From positions 1 through 64,000 of the forward strand of contig SVPA01000002.1 in NCBI GenBank assembly GCA_015066085.1: 64,000 bases of DNA. The letters run 5' to 3'. A program made the position numbers and the translations under genes. The notes below the pieces were generated by a model that worked only from the letters and a program-made list of their open reading frames with translations, was not told the DNA's origin and made no database searches. Shown here in pieces: positions 12,589-62,461 of the stretch; the stretch's first letter is position 1, and each line of letters begins with the position of its first letter. This DNA is from Oscillospiraceae bacterium. GTDB taxonomy: Bacteria > Bacillota > Clostridia > Oscillospirales > Acutalibacteraceae.

Positions 12589-12871
12589 TTCACAGGTTCT
12601 CGTCCTGCCATATACAAAAAAGATATTTTGGATAAGTTTGCGAACAGATTCGAACTCTCGTAAAAATGAAATCCTTGCTGATGCAAGGATGAAATCAGCT
12701 AACGCTGATGAAATCTTCGGCTTTGCCTCAGATGAAATTAAATCCACCCACTCGCCGTCGAGGCGAATTTCATCCAACGAAGTTGGATTTCATCGTCGAA
12801 AACGATTTCACCCACCCGCAAGGGTGGATTTAGTTGAAAACGACAAGTTTCTGTCGAAACTTGTCGTTTTC
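12589..12871 (-). repeat. hairpin-array element downstream of tRNA-Leu (outer copy)
   Basis: many small inverted repeats separated by gaaatc-type spacers; head hairpin AACGACAAGTTTCGACAGAAACTTGTCGTT and tail GAGTTCGAATCTGTTCGCAAA...AAAATATCTTTTTTGTA. Confidence 0.7.
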
Positions 12872-19127: not shown

Positions 19128-19412
19128 TTATTGTTTGTTTTTTCTACATTCTTCTACCGCTAACGCAATCTGGGCGTTTGAAAGGATAGGTTCGCCCTTG
19201 TTAGTGTTGTGCAGTTTCTCATAACAGGACAAACATAATTGACCGCACCCGATTTCGTAACATTCTCTAATCTCAATCGGGGTCGAAACGGCAACAACCG
19301 TTCTTTTTTTACATAAAACACACTGTTCAAATTCGTCTAAAACCGAAGAACTCTTATTTGTTTTCTTTTTTCTGAAAAGGGAGAACCTTTTTTTGTTTTT
19401 ATCCAAAATCAC
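19128..19412 (-). CDS. small cysteine-rich hypothetical protein
   Basis: CVLCKKRTVV ... CGQLCLSCYEKLHNTNKGE. Confidence 0.55.
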   Translation of the reverse strand: MILDKNKKRFSLFRKKKTNKSSSVLDEFEQCVLCKKRTVVAVSTPIEIRECYEIGCGQLCLSCYEKLHNTNKGEPILSNAQIALAVEECRKNKQ

Positions 19413-19432: not shown

Positions 19433-20872
19433 TTACTTTTTATTTTTGCGGGGGAGAAAAATAAGTACAATACATACAGTAAGACTTATAATCATAACAA
19501 CAAACCAAAACCAAACGTTACTGTTATCGCCCGTAGGGGGAGGGTTTGTTTTATCAGAGTTATATGTGTTTATAAACTTAGCGGTAGCGTTATCGGTAAT
19601 ATTTCCGTCTAAAGCAACGGCATAAACAAGATTACCTTCATCGCTTATGTCAATCGTTACTGTAATGCTGTATTCTTTTTGGTCATAAATAACATCTTTA
19701 AGACCGCCGTTTATTTCAAAAAGTCTGTAAGAATAAACTTTTCCGACGTCAGCACAAGTGAAAGGCAGACAAAATACGGCAGAACCGTTTTCGTCGGTTT
19801 TAAGCGAAAGTTTTTCAAAACTTTGGGTGTTTTCCAAAACAAACTCAAAACCCTTGGGAGATAGAGTATTGTCGCCGGTGTTTTTAACCTCTTTATCAAC
19901 CTCAATCTTAACTTCAATTTCTTCCTCGCTCGGTATAACGGGAACAAAGGTGTTATTAAAGGTTACAAATATGCTAAAACCGCCGTTTTCTTCCCTTACG
20001 GTTGCGTTCTGTGAGGCGGTTACACTGCCGATTTCAAGTTTTCCGTCCATATCGGTGTCACTAACTCTGACAGAAAAGTAATTAACGCTCTTGTCGTAAT
20101 GTACATTTTCAAGATTTCCCGCCACCTCGGTCATACGGAAACTGTAAACGCCTACCTTTTTAAAGGAGAGCGAATGAATCAAATCGCTGAAATCAAAATG
20201 GTTAAAGGTAGAATTGTTTGCGTTGTATTCAACCGTTTTTGTGTCTATAACTTCAAAAACGCCATCGCTGTTTTTCTGTTCTAAAGCAAAGGAGAAAGTA
20301 TCTCCTTCTTGCCAATCTCGGCCTTCAAGAATTTTTTCTCCGCTAACAAATATATTTGTCGGCTTAACGCTTTGCGGGGTATATACATTTATGTAATCAA
20401 ATTCTAAACTGCCGTCTTCACAGACGATTCCGTTTACTGTAACAGCATCGTCTTTAACATTAAATCCACTGTCGGTCTTTTGGATTTCGGTAACGGTTAC
20501 CTTTGTTCCCGTGTCTATACCCTTAAGGGCAAAGGTTTCGCCGGGTTTTACCGAAACAACAAGAGAACCGTTTGGGTCAGCAACCATATCTTCTTTTGTT
20601 GTTTTTATTGTTGTGTTTGCGTAAAGAGAACCGAGTTCAACCTTAAAATCAAAAGAGATGTTCTCGGGGATTACATATCCGTCCCCTAAAGAGTGTTCAA
20701 CTGTTTTGTTTATAATAAGGTTATTTATAATGCTTTCAAACGGAATAAAGGTGTTTATAAGACTGTCCGTTTTGGTTACAATAAATCCAAGGGTAGTGTT
20801 TACGGCAGAAGTCAGCAATATAATTAAGGAAAGGGCAAGGGCTATTCTTCGCAAAAGTTTATTCTTAATCAT
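19433..20872 (-). CDS. LPXTG-like anchored protein with Spy0128/FctA-type isopeptide domains
   Basis: FVSGEKILEGRDWQEGDTFSFALEQ, repeated domain; C-terminal PPPTGDNSNVWFW + TM + RKNKK; start placed at MIKNKLLRR after ggagg. Confidence 0.85.
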   Translation of the reverse strand: MIKNKLLRRIALALSLIILLTSAVNTTLGFIVTKTDSLINTFIPFESIINNLIINKTVEHSLGDGYVIPENISFDFKVELGSLYANTTIKTTKEDMVADPNGSLVVSVKPGETFALKGIDTGTKVTVTEIQKTDSGFNVKDDAVTVNGIVCEDGSLEFDYINVYTPQSVKPTNIFVSGEKILEGRDWQEGDTFSFALEQKNSDGVFEVIDTKTVEYNANNSTFNHFDFSDLIHSLSFKKVGVYSFRMTEVAGNLENVHYDKSVNYFSVRVSDTDMDGKLEIGSVTASQNATVREENGGFSIFVTFNNTFVPVIPSEEEIEVKIEVDKEVKNTGDNTLSPKGFEFVLENTQSFEKLSLKTDENGSAVFCLPFTCADVGKVYSYRLFEINGGLKDVIYDQKEYSITVTIDISDEGNLVYAVALDGNITDNATAKFINTYNSDKTNPPPTGDNSNVWFWFVVMIISLTVCIVLIFLPRKNKK

Positions 20873-20901
20873 TAAGTTGCCTCCGAGCAAACAAGGTAAA
20901 A

Positions 20902-20980
20902 GCAATCAAAAAGCACAAGCGACTTTGCTTATGCTCTTTGATTGCCGCCTATCCCTCATAGAGAGGGATAGAACGGACTT
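20902..20980 (-). ncRNA. candidate leader RNA motif, copy 1
   Basis: AAGTCCGTTC-[TATCCCTC/GAGGGATA]-GGCG-GCAATCAAA...TTTGATTGC two-hairpin arrangement upstream of RBS. Confidence 0.6.
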
Positions 20981-20997
20981 AAAATGAACAAAACAGA

Positions 20998-22902
20998 TTA
21001 ATCTTTGATAACAGTTACACCATTAAAGGAACTAATACCATAAATTCCTTTTCCGTCACGGGCACCAAATAGAAAATCAAATGCAATCAGTTGATTATGT
21101 GTTTCATCAGCATCGTGGTCGCAAGCGGAAAGGTCGATACCGCCGTAGCCAAGACCTGCTTCAACACGTCTAAACTTGTATTCGCCGGCCTCTGCATAGC
21201 TGGGCGTGCCATAGCTTGCATCTTCACAGTAGTGATAGTTTGCCCAATCGCCGAAGATTACCTCAACGTTTTCGCAAATAACACGTGCGGGATTTGCTTC
21301 TGTTCTATCATTTACCGTATGATTGTCGCGAACGTCTGCTACAACCATACCGCAAGTTCTATAGTTATACCATTGATAGTTAGAAGTTGCGTCGTTGTAA
21401 ACGTCTAATTTACATGCAATTTTACTGTTTTTAATAACAACATAGTTTCCTGTGTTCATTGCACCTACAACACCACCTACACGAGTGTCGTAAGAGCCCC
21501 ACCATGAGCCGATGGTAGTGGTATCTTCAATGTTGATTCCATCGAAGGTTGTGGTTGTGCCATTATTGGAGCACCATGCAACAATACCCCCTGTGTTGTG
21601 ATTATAGTTTACAACGGTTGAGTTTTTAAGGGTAATATTTTCAAAGTTAGAAGCGCCTGCATAAGCTGCGATACCGCCTGCATAACCCGAACCGTCATTT
21701 TCAATTAATGCACCGTCTAAAACAAGGTTTTTAACAGTACCTTCATAAACTGCGCCAAACAAAGCTACATGTTTAGAGTTACAGTCTTGGCGCAAATTGA
21801 AAATGGTTTTATTATTTCCGTCGAAAATACCGCTGAAATCTGCGTTTGATGCATCACCGATAGGCTCAAAGAGAACTCTGTTTCCGTTTTCATCAAGAGC
21901 ATAAAGGTCGATGTTCTTTGTAAGGGCAATAGTTTTACCTGCAAATGTATTGCCTTCATCAACAAGCTTAGCAAGACCTGCAAGCTGTTCTGCAGAGGTC
22001 AGTGAGAATTCTGTATCGGTGTCATTATACCAAGAGGTATCAGCTGTGCCGTCCCAGGCATCAACCAAGCTTGCTTCATAATTATCAATTGCACCGGTAA
22101 ACCATTCAACACAATAAACTTCGCCTGTTTCTGTGTTGGTAGTCTCGGGCACACCGAAGGATGTGTCAAGAGCGTTCTTAGCAGCGGCGTAAGATGTAGT
22201 CGTTCTTTGGAAAGCGTCGTTTGCATTTTCAAAACCTGCGGTCTGAGTGGCCTGAGAAAGAACTAAGATATCATATTTTCCGTTTCCGTTTCCATCAAGT
22301 CTTTCAACGTCTTCGTTGGTTGCATCTTTGCTTAAATAAACCTGAAGAAGCGAAGGAATTGTAGTCTCGCCGGGTTTTACGGGAGCAGCATGAACGAACT
22401 CCATTATGTTGTACTTGTAACCGTCAATTTCCTCTACGAAATCGTTTGCAATGTTCCAAGCACCGGGGAAAGAAAATTCGCTTCCGTTTTCCGAGTTAAT
22501 GGAAATGCCTATCTTGTTGAATTCTTCGTAAGTAAAATCACCCATTTCAAATGCGATAAGTGTACGAACGTATGCATCGCTTTTGCCGGTGTTTTTTACT
22601 GAAACATACTTGTCAACAACATTATTCATTGTAAATTGACGATATGCACCATCGGCATTTTCGGTATTTTTCCAACCGAGTGTACCAACATAAGGGTAGA
22701 GAGGCTTATCTTGTTCGAAATCAACAAGATTTCCGTTTTCATCATATTGTTGCTCAATTTGCTCAATTTTAACGTTGCCCATAGTCATAACGTTAACATC
22801 GCTGTCTTCGCTGGTTAAAAAAGCCAAAGTTCCGCCAATAGCGAGTGCGGCAACTAATACATAAGCGACGCCCATTAAAAGAACCTTTTTCATTTTTGAC
22901 AT
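20998..22902 (-). CDS. SipW-dependent-type (TasA/CalY-like) secreted protein with C-terminal beta-helix/GLUG-like region
   Basis: N-term VALAIGGTLAFLTSEDSDVNVMTMGNV; later GIFDGNNKTIFNL ... GAVYEGTVKNLVLDGALI ... GGIAAYAGASNFENITLKNSTV. Confidence 0.8.
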   Translation of the reverse strand: MSKMKKVLLMGVAYVLVAALAIGGTLAFLTSEDSDVNVMTMGNVKIEQIEQQYDENGNLVDFEQDKPLYPYVGTLGWKNTENADGAYRQFTMNNVVDKYVSVKNTGKSDAYVRTLIAFEMGDFTYEEFNKIGISINSENGSEFSFPGAWNIANDFVEEIDGYKYNIMEFVHAAPVKPGETTIPSLLQVYLSKDATNEDVERLDGNGNGKYDILVLSQATQTAGFENANDAFQRTTTSYAAAKNALDTSFGVPETTNTETGEVYCVEWFTGAIDNYEASLVDAWDGTADTSWYNDTDTEFSLTSAEQLAGLAKLVDEGNTFAGKTIALTKNIDLYALDENGNRVLFEPIGDASNADFSGIFDGNNKTIFNLRQDCNSKHVALFGAVYEGTVKNLVLDGALIENDGSGYAGGIAAYAGASNFENITLKNSTVVNYNHNTGGIVAWCSNNGTTTTFDGINIEDTTTIGSWWGSYDTRVGGVVGAMNTGNYVVIKNSKIACKLDVYNDATSNYQWYNYRTCGMVVADVRDNHTVNDRTEANPARVICENVEVIFGDWANYHYCEDASYGTPSYAEAGEYKFRRVEAGLGYGGIDLSACDHDADETHNQLIAFDFLFGARDGKGIYGISSFNGVTVIKD

Positions 22903-22935
22903 ATGTATGCCTCCTTAGTTTGCTTTTGCCAAACG

Positions 22936-23010
22936 GCAATCAAAAGACAAAAACTGCTTCGAGTTTTTGCCCTTTGATTGCCGCCCACTATCCTCTCATT
23001 AGTGGACGGC
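22936..23010 (-). ncRNA. candidate leader RNA motif, copy 2
   Basis: GCCGTCCACT/AGTGGGCGGC stem followed by GCAATCAAA...TTTGATTGC stem, upstream of aaggagg. Confidence 0.6.
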
Positions 23011-23092
23011 GCGAGGAAAAAGGATGAAGACAAGAAACCTTCTTGTTCTCGCTTTACCTAAGCAGTTATAAACTGCGGGTAAACAAAATAAA

Positions 23093-23302
23093 TTAGCGTT
23101 TAACAAAAGGAATCAGAGAAAGCCATAGCCTTCGTCGTTTTTTAAGCCAAAAGCGTCTTTCCTGTCCTTTTGCTCTTCTGACTTCCATATTCAAATATTT
23201 AAGTTCTCTTGTAAATTCGCCTAAAAATTCAATAAAAACAATCAGAATCAAGACCAAAATAAATAATGATAGTAAAATAATTAAGCCGGGGGAATTATTC
23301 AT
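23093..23302 (-). CDS. small membrane protein
   Basis: MNNSPGLIILLSLFILVLILIVFIEFLGEF; ATG overlaps the stop of the upstream 55-aa ORF. Confidence 0.6.
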   Translation of the reverse strand: MNNSPGLIILLSLFILVLILIVFIEFLGEFTRELKYLNMEVRRAKGQERRFWLKKRRRLWLSLIPFVKR

Positions 23303-23462
23303 CAAATGTGCAACCTATAGTAACTTCGCTTTCATGTGTGTTTGTTTTTATATCTGCAAATCTTCTTTTAACCGATTTAGCCTTTTTTGTTCTTTTAACA
23401 ATCACAAAAATGCAAACCGCTAAAACTCCGCCAACGGCAGCGCCTATAATAAAGGGTAGCAT
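23295..23462 (-). CDS. small single-TM protein (55 aa, below ORF-track cutoff)
   Basis: MLPFIIGAAVGGVLAVCIFVIVKRTKKAKSVKRRFADIKTNTHESEVTIGCTFDE, tggagg RBS. Confidence 0.65.
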   Translation of the reverse strand: MLPFIIGAAVGGVLAVCIFVIVKRTKKAKSVKRRFADIKTNTHESEVTIGCTFDE

Positions 23463-23497
23463 AGCGTTCCTCCATTTTAAAAATCTAATTTATATCA

Positions 23498-23566
23498 GCA
23501 ATCAAAACATATAAATTCAAACTTATATGCTTTGATTGCCGCCCGACATAGTGTCGGAACGGACTT
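23498..23566 (-). ncRNA. candidate leader RNA motif, copy 3
   Basis: AAGTCCGTTC-[CGACA/TGTCG]-GGCG-GCAATCAAA[GCATATAAG..TTTATATGT]TTTGATTGC. Confidence 0.6.
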
Positions 23567-23582
23567 AATTTAATGTTGTTTA

Positions 23583-25007
23583 TTATTCAACAATGTTGCC
23601 GGCAGCATCATAGTAAACAGAACTGCTGAATCCATAACGGATGGGAGATTTAGCAGTACCGAGAAGAACAAAGGTATTATTGTTGTTATAAATATCTAAG
23701 TTTAAGCGATTGTTTATGGCATCATTGCTATGGGTGTTGCTGTTTAAATCACCAATGTAGTTGTGTACCCAGAAAGCACGGGTATTTCCAATTAAAGTAC
23801 TGTTGGTAATTTTAACGTTATTCATATCAAATCCTGAGTTGAATACACGAACAGCACAGTAATTTGAATCAATAGTACAATTATTCATATTCAGGGTTAC
23901 TTCGCCCCAGTTATTCAAATGAACACCAAAAGTCATATCGGTACCGTCAACCTTCAGGGTTACATTTTCCATATTGAGAACACCGCCTGCGGTGACATCA
24001 AAAATGGCTGCCATATAGTTCCAACCTTGATTCTTGGTGGCAACAAGTTCGAACTTGCCGTTTTGAACAGTCATAGAACCTTTTACAACAAATGCTTCGC
24101 GGTTTCCTGTTCCGTTTGCAACAGCAGAAACAGAATGTCCGTTAAGGTTTAATGTTACATTTTTTCCTGCTGCAACGGTAATGGCGTTGTCTGTGTTAAA
24201 GTCAGAAATGTCTTTATTTACAATTACTTCGCCTCCGTTTGCAATAGCAGAGGCTAATTCGTCAGCAGTATTAACAATAACGGGAATTTCTGCATCGCCA
24301 AACCATTCGGAAACTTTTGCTTCGTCAACTGCGCCGAAAGCGGTGTCAAGAGCAGTAGTTGCGTTTGCAAAACCTTCGGTCTGAACGGCCTGGGACATTA
24401 CAAGAATTTCCCAAGCATCACCGAATTTTGCACAGTCTTCGTTAGTTGCTTTTTTGTCAAGGAATACCTGCATTAAAGAGGGAGCAGATTTTTCGTTTGC
24501 GGCAATGGCCTCGTTGTATGTGCAGCACATAACATAGTAGGTAATATTATTAATGTCGGTTAAGAAACTTTTTGTTACAGTTACATCTGTACTGTTAAAA
24601 TTGATGTGAATTAAATTATTGGGGTCGCCTTCGGGTGCTTCAATAGCAATAAGGGTACGAACAAAGGCATCTGATTTACCGGTGTTATTAACGGTAACGA
24701 TTTTGTCAACGACATTCTTCATATCGTTTGAGAAAACCTTATATTCGTCTCCGTTTACATTAACCCCTTCTTCTGCCCAGGCTTCAGTGTCATAAACTGC
24801 GGGGAAAGCGGGTTTTGCCTGAGAGAACTCTACAAGATTTCCGTTCTCGTCACGCTCGTACTCAACCTGCTCGATAGAAACATTACCGAGGGTCATTACA
24901 TTGACATCTGAGTCTTCGCTTGTAAGGTATGCTAAAGTTGAGCCGATAGCAACTGCACCAACAAGAACAAAACTTAAACCTGTAAGCAATACATTTTTGA
25001 TTTTCAT
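23583..25007 (-). CDS. SipW-dependent-type (TasA/CalY-like) secreted protein with C-terminal pectate-lyase-like beta-helix
   Basis: VGAVAIGSTLAYLTSEDSDVNVMTLGNV; VTLNLNGHSVSAV ... MTVQNGKFELVA ... VLNMENVTLKV ... VTLNMNNCTI. Confidence 0.8.
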   Translation of the reverse strand: MKIKNVLLTGLSFVLVGAVAIGSTLAYLTSEDSDVNVMTLGNVSIEQVEYERDENGNLVEFSQAKPAFPAVYDTEAWAEEGVNVNGDEYKVFSNDMKNVVDKIVTVNNTGKSDAFVRTLIAIEAPEGDPNNLIHINFNSTDVTVTKSFLTDINNITYYVMCCTYNEAIAANEKSAPSLMQVFLDKKATNEDCAKFGDAWEILVMSQAVQTEGFANATTALDTAFGAVDEAKVSEWFGDAEIPVIVNTADELASAIANGGEVIVNKDISDFNTDNAITVAAGKNVTLNLNGHSVSAVANGTGNREAFVVKGSMTVQNGKFELVATKNQGWNYMAAIFDVTAGGVLNMENVTLKVDGTDMTFGVHLNNWGEVTLNMNNCTIDSNYCAVRVFNSGFDMNNVKITNSTLIGNTRAFWVHNYIGDLNSNTHSNDAINNRLNLDIYNNNNTFVLLGTAKSPIRYGFSSSVYYDAAGNIVE

Positions 25008-25059: not shown

Positions 25060-25662
25060 TTAGGGGTTAGTTCTGCTTGGAATTTTTGACCATGCGTCTG
25101 CAGCGGTTGTGATATTATCATCACGCTGAACTGCATAAGCGGTAACGGTGAGTTTAGGATAAGAATCGTTTTGGTCAAGTGCGTTAAGCATCTGCTTGGT
25201 AACGGTTTCCTTAACCGTAACAGCGTTATCCTTAATAACAACAAATTCAGCGTCGGTATCTGCCTTGTCTACCGCTCTGTAATAAACGCCGTCGGTGTTT
25301 TCAAGTGCGGTCCAACCGTCTGCGATTTCATAGGTCATAAAATCATCAAAATTAGCGGTTTTTTCAAGTTTTACAAAAAGCCAGGAATTCTCGCTGTCCG
25401 CCTTAACGGTTACAAGCGGGTCCTTGGTAACTGTTTTACCGGGAATCATTGTATATTCGTTTGTGTTAGCGTCGCCGTCGCCATCAAGACCTGTATCGGT
25501 TTCGTGGAGGGTGATATTGATATCGCCGTAGGTGAAAGTGTTTACTACAGGTGCAGTGTCGGCAATAAGCCAAGCAACCGTTGTGCCGATAATACCGCAA
25601 ACCACAAGGGTAATAGCGGTCAGTAAAAGTGCAAGTTTGGTTTTAGAAAGTTTTTGCTTCAT
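25060..25662 (-). CDS. TasA/CalY-like SipW-dependent secreted protein
   Basis: ICGTT-type N-terminus: VCGIIGTTVAWLIADTAPVVNTFTYGDINITLHETD. Confidence 0.8.
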   Translation of the reverse strand: MKQKLSKTKLALLLTAITLVVCGIIGTTVAWLIADTAPVVNTFTYGDINITLHETDTGLDGDGDANTNEYTMIPGKTVTKDPLVTVKADSENSWLFVKLEKTANFDDFMTYEIADGWTALENTDGVYYRAVDKADTDAEFVVIKDNAVTVKETVTKQMLNALDQNDSYPKLTVTAYAVQRDDNITTAADAWSKIPSRTNP

Positions 25663-25686
25663 ATTTGTTTTCCTTCTTTCTTAAAA

Positions 25687-26340
25687 CTAGTTCATTTGTT
25701 GGTCAAAAGAGTTCCAAGCCGTTTGGGCATTTTCAAAACCTCCCGCTTGAATAGCGTGACCAACAGCAACTATCTCAAGGTCGGCAATTGCTTTCATATC
25801 GTCTCGGTCAAAAAAAGCGGGAACGGTAATGGAATTAAATAAGGGCTCAAGAACAATGTCGGCATTTTCTAAAGCCGTAACCTTATTTATATAACGGAAT
25901 TCGTAAGTAACGGTGTTTTCGGTTTCGTTTCTAACTTCGGTCTGATAAACCCATTTTGAGCCGTCAAAACCGTTGAAAATTGAGGTGAGTTCGGCTCCGC
26001 TCGGAGCAAAAATTTCGTCAAGTTCTTTAAGGCAGTTTACCTTAATGAGCATACGAACATAGGCCTCTTCGCTACCCTTAACAACGGTTAGAGTAGGGTC
26101 CTTTGTATAGGTCATACCGGGCACAAGATGATAGTTGTTTTCTTTTACTCTCTCGGCGTTTTCTACAGGTTTTCCGTCTGCGGTAACCTTTGTTTCATCA
26201 AGGGTAATTTCAACATCGCCCACTGTAAATGTGTTAACAACGGTATCCTGGCTTGTAAGATAAGCGAAGGTACCAAGAGTTGCGCCTATTAAAATTGAAG
26301 CAAGGCAAACCGATAAAATTAAAATTTTACTCTTTTTCAT
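25687..26340 (-). CDS. TasA/CalY-like SipW-dependent secreted protein
   Basis: ILIGATLGTFAYLTSQDTVVNTFTVGDVEITLDETKV; start placed at MKKSKILI. Confidence 0.8.
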   Translation of the reverse strand: MKKSKILILSVCLASILIGATLGTFAYLTSQDTVVNTFTVGDVEITLDETKVTADGKPVENAERVKENNYHLVPGMTYTKDPTLTVVKGSEEAYVRMLIKVNCLKELDEIFAPSGAELTSIFNGFDGSKWVYQTEVRNETENTVTYEFRYINKVTALENADIVLEPLFNSITVPAFFDRDDMKAIADLEIVAVGHAIQAGGFENAQTAWNSFDQQMN

Positions 26341-26854
26341 AAGATAACCTCTTTCTGGTTTGATTTTTTGAACTTGAAACAATAATGCTTGTTACAAGTT
26401 CAAAAAGAATAAGAATTCCTGAAACTGCAAGTGCTACATATTTCCCGGGAGGGTATGATATATAGGTTGCTAAAAACCCAAGAAGCGGAATACAGAATAC
26501 AGGCTTTCCGATTACACTCTCAAATGTTACCAAAGTGCCGTCGGCTATGTTGTTTTCGTCGCCTTTGGTTCTAAAAAGAACCTTTGTATTGGTTTCGTCC
26601 GGAACCAGTTCAATAATTCGGTGGGTTGCTACTCCGCCGTTTGGCATTCTAAAGGTTATCGCGTCGCCCGTTTTCAGACCTTCGGGATTAACCTTGTCAA
26701 CATATATCATTGAGCCTGTCGGATAAACCGATTCCATTGACCCCGACAGTACGCAGTAGGGTTTAAGTCCAAAAATGTTAAAACCGTAAAGCAAAAAGGC
26801 TAAAACGGCAACAATAGTCACAAGCGTATTCGAGACTATTTTTAGTGCTTTCAT
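26327..26854 (-). CDS. sipW: SipW-type (ER-like) signal peptidase I
   Basis: VLSGSMESVYPTGSMIYVDKV catalytic Ser, GGVATHRIIEL catalytic His, RTKGDENNIADG. Confidence 0.88.
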   Translation of the reverse strand: MKALKIVSNTLVTIVAVLAFLLYGFNIFGLKPYCVLSGSMESVYPTGSMIYVDKVNPEGLKTGDAITFRMPNGGVATHRIIELVPDETNTKVLFRTKGDENNIADGTLVTFESVIGKPVFCIPLLGFLATYISYPPGKYVALAVSGILILFELVTSIIVSSSKNQTRKRLSYEKE

Positions 26855-27967: not shown

Positions 27968-27996
27968 ATTATACACGCTGTTTTTATCTATGTCAA
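27968..27996 (-). promoter_or_regulatory. consensus promoter of the KTR-like gene
   Basis: TTGACA - 17 bp - TATAAT on minus strand. Confidence 0.8.
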
Positions 27997-62185: not shown

Positions 62186-62461
62186 AGAAAAACGACAAGT
62201 TTCGACAGAAACTTGTCGTTTTTCAATGATATCCGTTCTTCCGAGAACGGATGATATATCTTCGATATGATATCCACCTTCGGTGGACGATATATGCCTG
62301 CGGCATATGAAGGAACGGATATTATATCATACTTGCGAAGCAAGTATATCACTCGGCAACGCCGTATATCATATCGTGCAAGCGATATATCATTATTTAT
62401 GCAAGAGTTCGAATTCATACGCAATAATACCGAAAATATCTTTTTTGTAGCCCCCAGCCAA
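62186..62461 (+). repeat. hairpin-array element abutting tRNA-Gln 3' end
   Basis: head AACGACAAGTTTCGACAGAAACTTGTCGTT, about seven small hairpins with gatatat/atatcat spacers, tail GAGTTCGAATTC..ACGCAA..AAAATATCTTTTTTGTA, then GCCCCCAGCCAA resembling the tRNA 3' end. Confidence 0.75.

Follow-up and report, generated by a model that had tools for sequence, protein, structure and literature searches.

The gaps between the genes of a surface-fibre operon in an Oscillospiraceae bacterium hold three copies of a two-hairpin element that is a structured RNA under selection and represents a new RNA family, absent from Rfam 15. About 90 further copies were found by a pattern scan and covariance models beyond the window (the whole 64-kb stretch of DNA that was analysed), in several dozen (∼60) other Clostridia species. 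The element is restricted to surface-fibre operons, where its flanks encode fibre subunits, SipW peptidases or pilin-like proteins. With a confidence somewhat short of even, we read it as an intercistronic mRNA punctuation of SipW/TasA-type fibre operons that would set subunit ratios chiefly through transcript processing and the protection of ends. Intercistronic punctuation as such is already known; what is new is a conserved family with two hairpins whose members are associated with surface-fibre operons.

Three copies in one fibre operon

The host operon (Table 1) runs from a SipW-type signal peptidase through the 217-aa and 200-aa exported proteins and the 474-aa TasA-like protein to copy 3 and two small membrane proteins, and continues with copy 2, the 634-aa TasA-like protein, copy 1, a pilin-like protein with FctA/isopeptide domains and a 94-aa zinc-ribbon protein. 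No match to the minus-strand promoter consensus was found in the three copy-bearing intergenic gaps. The three two-hairpin copies described in a first-pass annotation of this DNA were all located where it had placed them, on the minus strand, and extend over positions 20902-20979, 22936-23009 and 23498-23562. Each follows closely on a stop codon (20998, 23093 and 23583) and is flanked on both sides by genes of its own direction. It consists of a short hairpin A, a gap of 1-2 nt and a long stem B whose base reads GGCAATCAAAG...TTTTGATTGC. Their folding energies range from -34 to -48 kcal/mol, with z-scores of -9.6, -6.6 and -7.1 and none of the shuffled sequences as stable.

Table 1. Coordinates of the element copies and of the genes of the fibre operon within the window.
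Feature	Position	Strand	Remarks
Copy 1, stem B	20902..20946	minus	GGCAATCAAAGAGCATAAGC-loop-GCTTGTGCTTTTTGATTGC
Copy 1, hairpin A	20949..20971	minus	CTATCCCTC-TCTAT-GAGGGATAG
Copy 2, stem B	22936..22982	minus	GGCAATCAAAGGGCAAAAACT-loop-AGTTTTTGTCTTTTGATTGC
Copy 2, hairpin A	22985..23005	minus	CCACT-11 nt-AGTGG; absent from RNAfold minimum
Copy 3, stem B	23498..23540	minus	GGCAATCAAAGCATATAAG-loop-TTTATATGTTTTGATTGC
Copy 3, hairpin A	23543..23557	minus	CCGACA-CTA-TGTCGG
Candidate operon promoter TTGACA-17-TATAAT	27968..27996	minus	12/12 consensus match only
SipW-type signal peptidase I	26327..26854	minus	TIGR02228 above cut-off
Two shorter exported proteins (217 aa, 200 aa)	25060..26340	minus	217-aa protein: SipW-cognate signal, TIGR04088 above cut-off
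TasA-like fibre protein, 474 aa, on the 5' side of copy 3	23583..25007	minus	SipW-cognate signal just sub-threshold
Genes for two small membrane proteins (55 and 70 aa), flanked by copies 3 and 2	23093..23462	minus	
634-aa TasA-like fibre protein	20998..22902	minus	Copy 2 on 5' side, copy 1 on 3' side; SipW-cognate signal just sub-threshold
Pilin-like surface protein, downstream of copy 1	19433..20878	minus	FctA / isopeptide-linkage domains; LPXTG-like PPTGD end
94-aa cysteine-rich, zinc-ribbon-like protein, operon end	19128..19412	minus	

Some details of the earlier description had to be amended. The leader sequence AAGTCCGTTC, thought to be common to all copies, is present in two of them (20980-20971 and 23566-23557) but not in the middle one, which has CGCGCCGTCC. 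The outer CCG/CGG closure of hairpin A draws on a GG that is also able to close stem B, and the two pairings compete because both need this same GG. In the RNAfold minimum of copy 2, another small hairpin takes the place of CCACT/AGTGG, so that hairpin A of this copy rests on the comparison with the other copies.

Two further observations concern the window. The 70-aa membrane protein (23093-23305, minus strand) has the C-terminal sequence RLWLSLIPFVK; relatives of it adjoin the element at loci L010, L015 and L039, and a similar motif is found in larger proteins at L092 and L057. Two RNAs of the small RNA family Gut-1 (RF01706) also lie in the window, at 12762-12836 on the minus strand and at 62224-62298 on the plus strand.

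Covariation and strand bias of the element

The first-pass annotation took the paired but changing stems of the three window copies as the mark of a selected RNA structure. While three sequences are insufficient for this on their own, selection is proven by an alignment of 83 distinct copies. In this alignment, which was made with covariance model R1 and is fitted to the model structure, standard pairs fill 93.3% of the pair cells, compared with 84.2% in shuffles that keep the relatedness among the copies and 40-52% in controls with the partners slid by 1-3 columns. Double-sided changes affect 18 of the 26 pairs and 209 cells; shuffling gave 66 such cells on average, and none of 500 shuffles reached the observed level. 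All seven pairs of hairpin A covary. As 68 of the 83 sequences have the exact stem B base by construction, the fairer test of the base lies in copies found without the pattern, and these show compensatory changes to GGGAACC/GGTTCCC (L093), GGCAAGC/GCTTGCC (L096), GGCGGAC/GTCCGCC (L118), GCAATTAAAG/TTTTAATTGC (L011), GGTAATC/GATTAC (L018) and CCTCTTTC/GAAAGAGG (L136). Independent folds of L093, L096 and L133 recover stem B, with z-scores between -6.5 and -9.5. A perfect-stem search found hairpin A in 67 of 68 copies, the exception (L008) having an imperfect stem, with 57 distinct 5' arms that are pyrimidine-rich in 65 of the 67; with shuffled flanks, the median score was never reached.

The pairing of stem B is better on the transcript strand (97.0% of cells) than on the opposite one (86.0%), with 197 G-U cells against 24 A-C cells. 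The element is therefore an RNA structure, as a DNA palindrome would not show such a bias. A dispersed palindromic DNA repeat of the REP type, which the annotation named as the finding that would overturn its own, is rejected on copy number and orientation: the oriented pattern matches three times in the 1.32-Mb genome, always at the fibre locus of this one operon and in one orientation, and the covariance model found no further copies elsewhere in that genome. Although the base of stem B is a near-perfect palindrome, it is not strand-neutral, its G-U pairs favouring one strand, and the exact pattern is absent from viral contigs, which leaves a repeat or binding site at the DNA level with next to no probability.

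Rfam 15 returned no match at the three window copies, in agreement with the earlier statement that the motif is not a known riboswitch, nor did Rfam match any of eight related loci, divergent ones included, at E-values up to 1. No published RNA of SipW/TasA or pilin operons was found in the openly searchable papers; in the accessible part of a human-microbiome RNA survey (PMC8040213), 'sortase' is mentioned only in passing.

The conserved columns are confined to the helices, and both loops vary in length and sequence. Nearly invariant is the core CAAA/UUUG with its flanking GG/CY, and a G-U wobble (columns 59-107) is conserved in 77 of the 83 copies. A core that persists while flanking pairs change, this wobble and the strand bias of hairpin A, with its pyrimidine-rich 5' arm in 65 of 67 copies, are features that a binding site of a trans-acting RNA-binding protein, a dedicated RNase or a small RNA could have, through which fibre production would respond to a signal. 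We regard such a site as improbable, given loops without conservation and no consistently co-located candidate protein: in a tblastn search of 62 element loci, relatives of the 94-aa zinc-ribbon protein were found at 6 and relatives of the 70-aa membrane protein at 3. It is similarly doubtful that the CAAAGG...CYUUUG core and the strand-biased hairpin A together form the recognition site of a putative dedicated RNA-binding protein or RNase.

Genomic position and distribution

Scanned across 85,488 species genomes, the oriented pattern GGCAATCAAAG-N(8-36)-TTTTGATTGC returned 73 stretches. Fifteen pattern loci were set aside as chance matches, with no clear hairpin A by inspection and many of them from outside the Clostridia (L012, L013, L014, L029, L031, L032, L037, L050, L053, L056, L062, L066, L073, L074 and L078). 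The remaining loci all belong to Clostridia, nearly all of them to gut metagenome genomes (from ruminants, rabbit, chicken and others), and the carriers include an isolate, Cuneatibacter caecimuris DSM 29486. A phage origin was dropped, as the exact pattern was not found in viral contigs. Covariance model R1 matched 15 of 392 genomes of the class at E ≤ 0.001, several weak matches being ordinary terminators (L099-L103, which resemble these, were not counted), and model R2 matched 8 of 392 at E ≤ 1e-6. In a phylum-wide sample of 399 genomes, with stricter filters and few Clostridia, the element's own genome was the sole match. Among nine genomes of the same genus, none carries the element, and a relative of the 474-aa protein is recognisable in just one. 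The share of sampled Clostridia genomes with the element amounts to a few percent or less, and most fibre operons may therefore work without it, a point against the punctuation reading.

In 81 of the 83 copies, hairpin A starts 7-124 nt (median 24) past the stop codon of a co-directional ORF; of the two exceptions, one lies at the end of its contig (L019) and the other comes second in a tandem pair (L057). The distance from the end of stem B to the next start codon has a median of 37 nt and a long tail reaching 369 nt. With its tight spacing to the stop codon and loose spacing downstream, the element is anchored to the end of the upstream gene, more tightly than to the ribosome-binding site that follows. 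The upstream gene usually encodes a SipW-type/TasA-like fibre protein. Downstream genes were readable in 79 cases and, in an approximate classification by simple motif search, 58 have SipW-type signals and 9 encode signal peptidases (67 of 79 together), while most of the other 12 encode membrane or exported proteins, of small or larger size, that belong to the same operons. Twelve of 19 pairs of neighbouring copies bracket exactly one ORF.

This placement speaks against the 'leaders' of the first-pass annotation, and we consider it highly improbable that the element is a riboswitch or 5' leader responding to c-di-GMP, c-di-AMP or another ligand. A ribosome-binding site does follow within tens of nucleotides in most copies, and the genes are of a biofilm type, but the stop codon of another gene precedes 81 of the 83 copies, several copies occur per operon, the loops vary freely, and we found nothing aptamer-like: no conserved unpaired bases, no platform for alternative folds and no match in Rfam. 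Barely more probable is antitermination in cis, by a put-, EAR- or LoaP-like signal that would support processivity through a long operon. The put RNA of phage HK022 has two adjacent hairpins, which the two hairpins here, 0-2 nt apart, resemble, and EAR RNA belongs to a biofilm-matrix operon. The element, however, has no match in Rfam, to EAR or otherwise, and its copies fill many successive gaps of an operon rather than standing once near the promoter; moreover, the 97%-complete genome has a single NusG-family gene (PF02357) and no second, LoaP-like copy.

Related or diverged elements also occur between genes for surface proteins that are not of the SipW type, in genomes G289, G492, G1048 and G406, so that the association is with surface-protein operons and not strictly with SipW. 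At L142 and L146 (G1048), L091 (G492) and L094 (G289), similar two-hairpin elements lie between repeat proteins of ∼500 aa and other exported proteins outside the SipW type. Locus L136 (G406:C23:42500-62000) is an array of paralogous surface proteins of ∼1200-1440 aa. Its gaps carry diverged two-hairpin elements, whose outer hairpin A pairs (GAGG/CCTC) could compete with the stem B base.

Variation was also seen at other loci. A single gap at L057:6421-6808 (minus strand) holds two to three tandem copies within 400 nt. At L137:10777-10830, between two fibre genes, hairpin A is followed by the 5' half of stem B alone, as in a decayed or A-only element. At L138:3039-8300 (G052), a 1753-aa SipW-type fibre protein, whose C-terminal part appears Hint/intein-like by eye (CVTPDTLITLADGSQKRV...), directly precedes the element.

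A possible role in setting subunit amounts

In the punctuation reading that we tentatively favour, a polycistronic RNA would be made first, and hairpin A and the adjoining stem B of 16-24 bp would then fold just past the stop codon, where they could serve as a guide for cleavage and as a block to exonucleases. Each fibre-subunit gene would thereby gain a structured transcript end of its own, a gene bracketed by two copies would have structure at both ends of its transcript, and the outcome would be unequal amounts of subunits from one operon. Stem B may additionally cause partial termination of transcription. The genome contains a gene for RNase Y.

A precedent is the cip-cel operon of Clostridium cellulolyticum, where intergenic stem-loops guide cleavage, stabilise transcript ends and set the stoichiometry of the cellulosome (PMC4423207, PMC10311766). 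Like these stem-loops of selective RNA processing and stabilisation (SRPS), the element occupies intercistronic sites behind genes of an operon for an extracellular multi-subunit complex, has long, stable stems and occurs several times per operon (PMC4423207, PMC10311766). On the other hand, the cip-cel stem-loops vary from gap to gap and are not sequence-conserved, with GC1 having no sequence specificity (PMC10311766), whereas the element has the same two hairpins and a core of conserved sequence in many families and is associated with SipW/TasA-type fibre operons, in which cleavage is what we would predict. In this contrast to cip-cel, the conserved core hints at a specific binder, which the punctuation model does not need.

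The main rival, which we judge possible but unlikely, is that stem B works as an intrinsic terminator inside the operon, with a weak U-tract, at which some polymerases would stop after the fibre gene, so that read-through would yield less downstream mRNA and hairpin A would merely stabilise the end. The core AAAGGGCAUAAG...CUUGUGCCUUUU is terminator-like, four U are kept in 78 of the 83 copies, and 77 of the 83 have six U within 9 nt; as the conserved CAAAGG...CYUUUG core resembles a U-poor terminator, termination could be the main activity. Relevant parallels are the ABC-transporter operons of R. cellulolyticum, in which stoichiometry is set by internal terminators whose stems are long and whose tracts are low in U and paired (PMC9045158), and the sipW-bsaABCRSD operon of C. 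perfringens, in which a terminator predicted after bsaA gives rise to a sipW-bsaA mRNA and a read-through transcript (PMC7395162). The former resemble the element in their place after a gene presumably needed in excess and in a low-U tract within a long stem, but are single hairpins of transporter operons that form no conserved family and have no hairpin A (PMC9045158). The latter is likewise a fibre system with the site directly after the fibre gene and a read-through transcript, but it has been described solely as a predicted terminator, and the likeness is one of system and position (PMC7395162).

Several features fit termination poorly. In nearly all copies the U-run is interrupted by a G after U4, and stem B is followed by 5-6 U in 9 nt, compared with mostly 6-8 in the terminator-like hairpins of the 64-kb window, which served as the comparison set. 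Only three U are found in 5 of the 83 copies and in several distant ones. At L137:15213-15385, a full element has a stem B that encloses an AT-rich loop of ∼100 nt and is followed by UUC, which is unlike an intrinsic terminator, as one would not be expected to tolerate such a loop. At L051, a separate, ordinary terminator stands ∼75 nt downstream of the element. Termination also leaves unexplained the conserved hairpin A and a clamp that covaries beyond the U-run. It is because of the L137 loop and UUC, this clamp, hairpin A and the separate terminator at L051 that we favour a post-transcriptional role. Processing and partial termination may nonetheless act together, as they are reported to do at the IR5 stem-loop of cip-cel (PMC10311766).

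Stem-loops that set ratios between cistrons have so far been described one case at a time, and their sequences are as a rule not conserved. Here they form a covarying family placed between the genes of one machine, the SipW-exported surface fibres, in many families of gut Clostridia. In common with TasA, SipW and camelysin-type systems, the flanks of the element encode SipW-type peptidases and cognate exported proteins, but the papers searched describe no conserved RNA element for those systems. The covariance model provides a sequence handle for finding surface-fibre operons. The element itself yields a rule of subunit stoichiometry that can be put to the test, and it could serve as an orthogonal part with which to adjust expression inside clostridial operons. 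If the core and hairpin A were indeed a recognition site, Clostridia would tune the subunit composition of their fibres post-transcriptionally, through one shared RNA code behind each subunit gene, and a specific factor reading the element would define a new post-transcriptional regulon.
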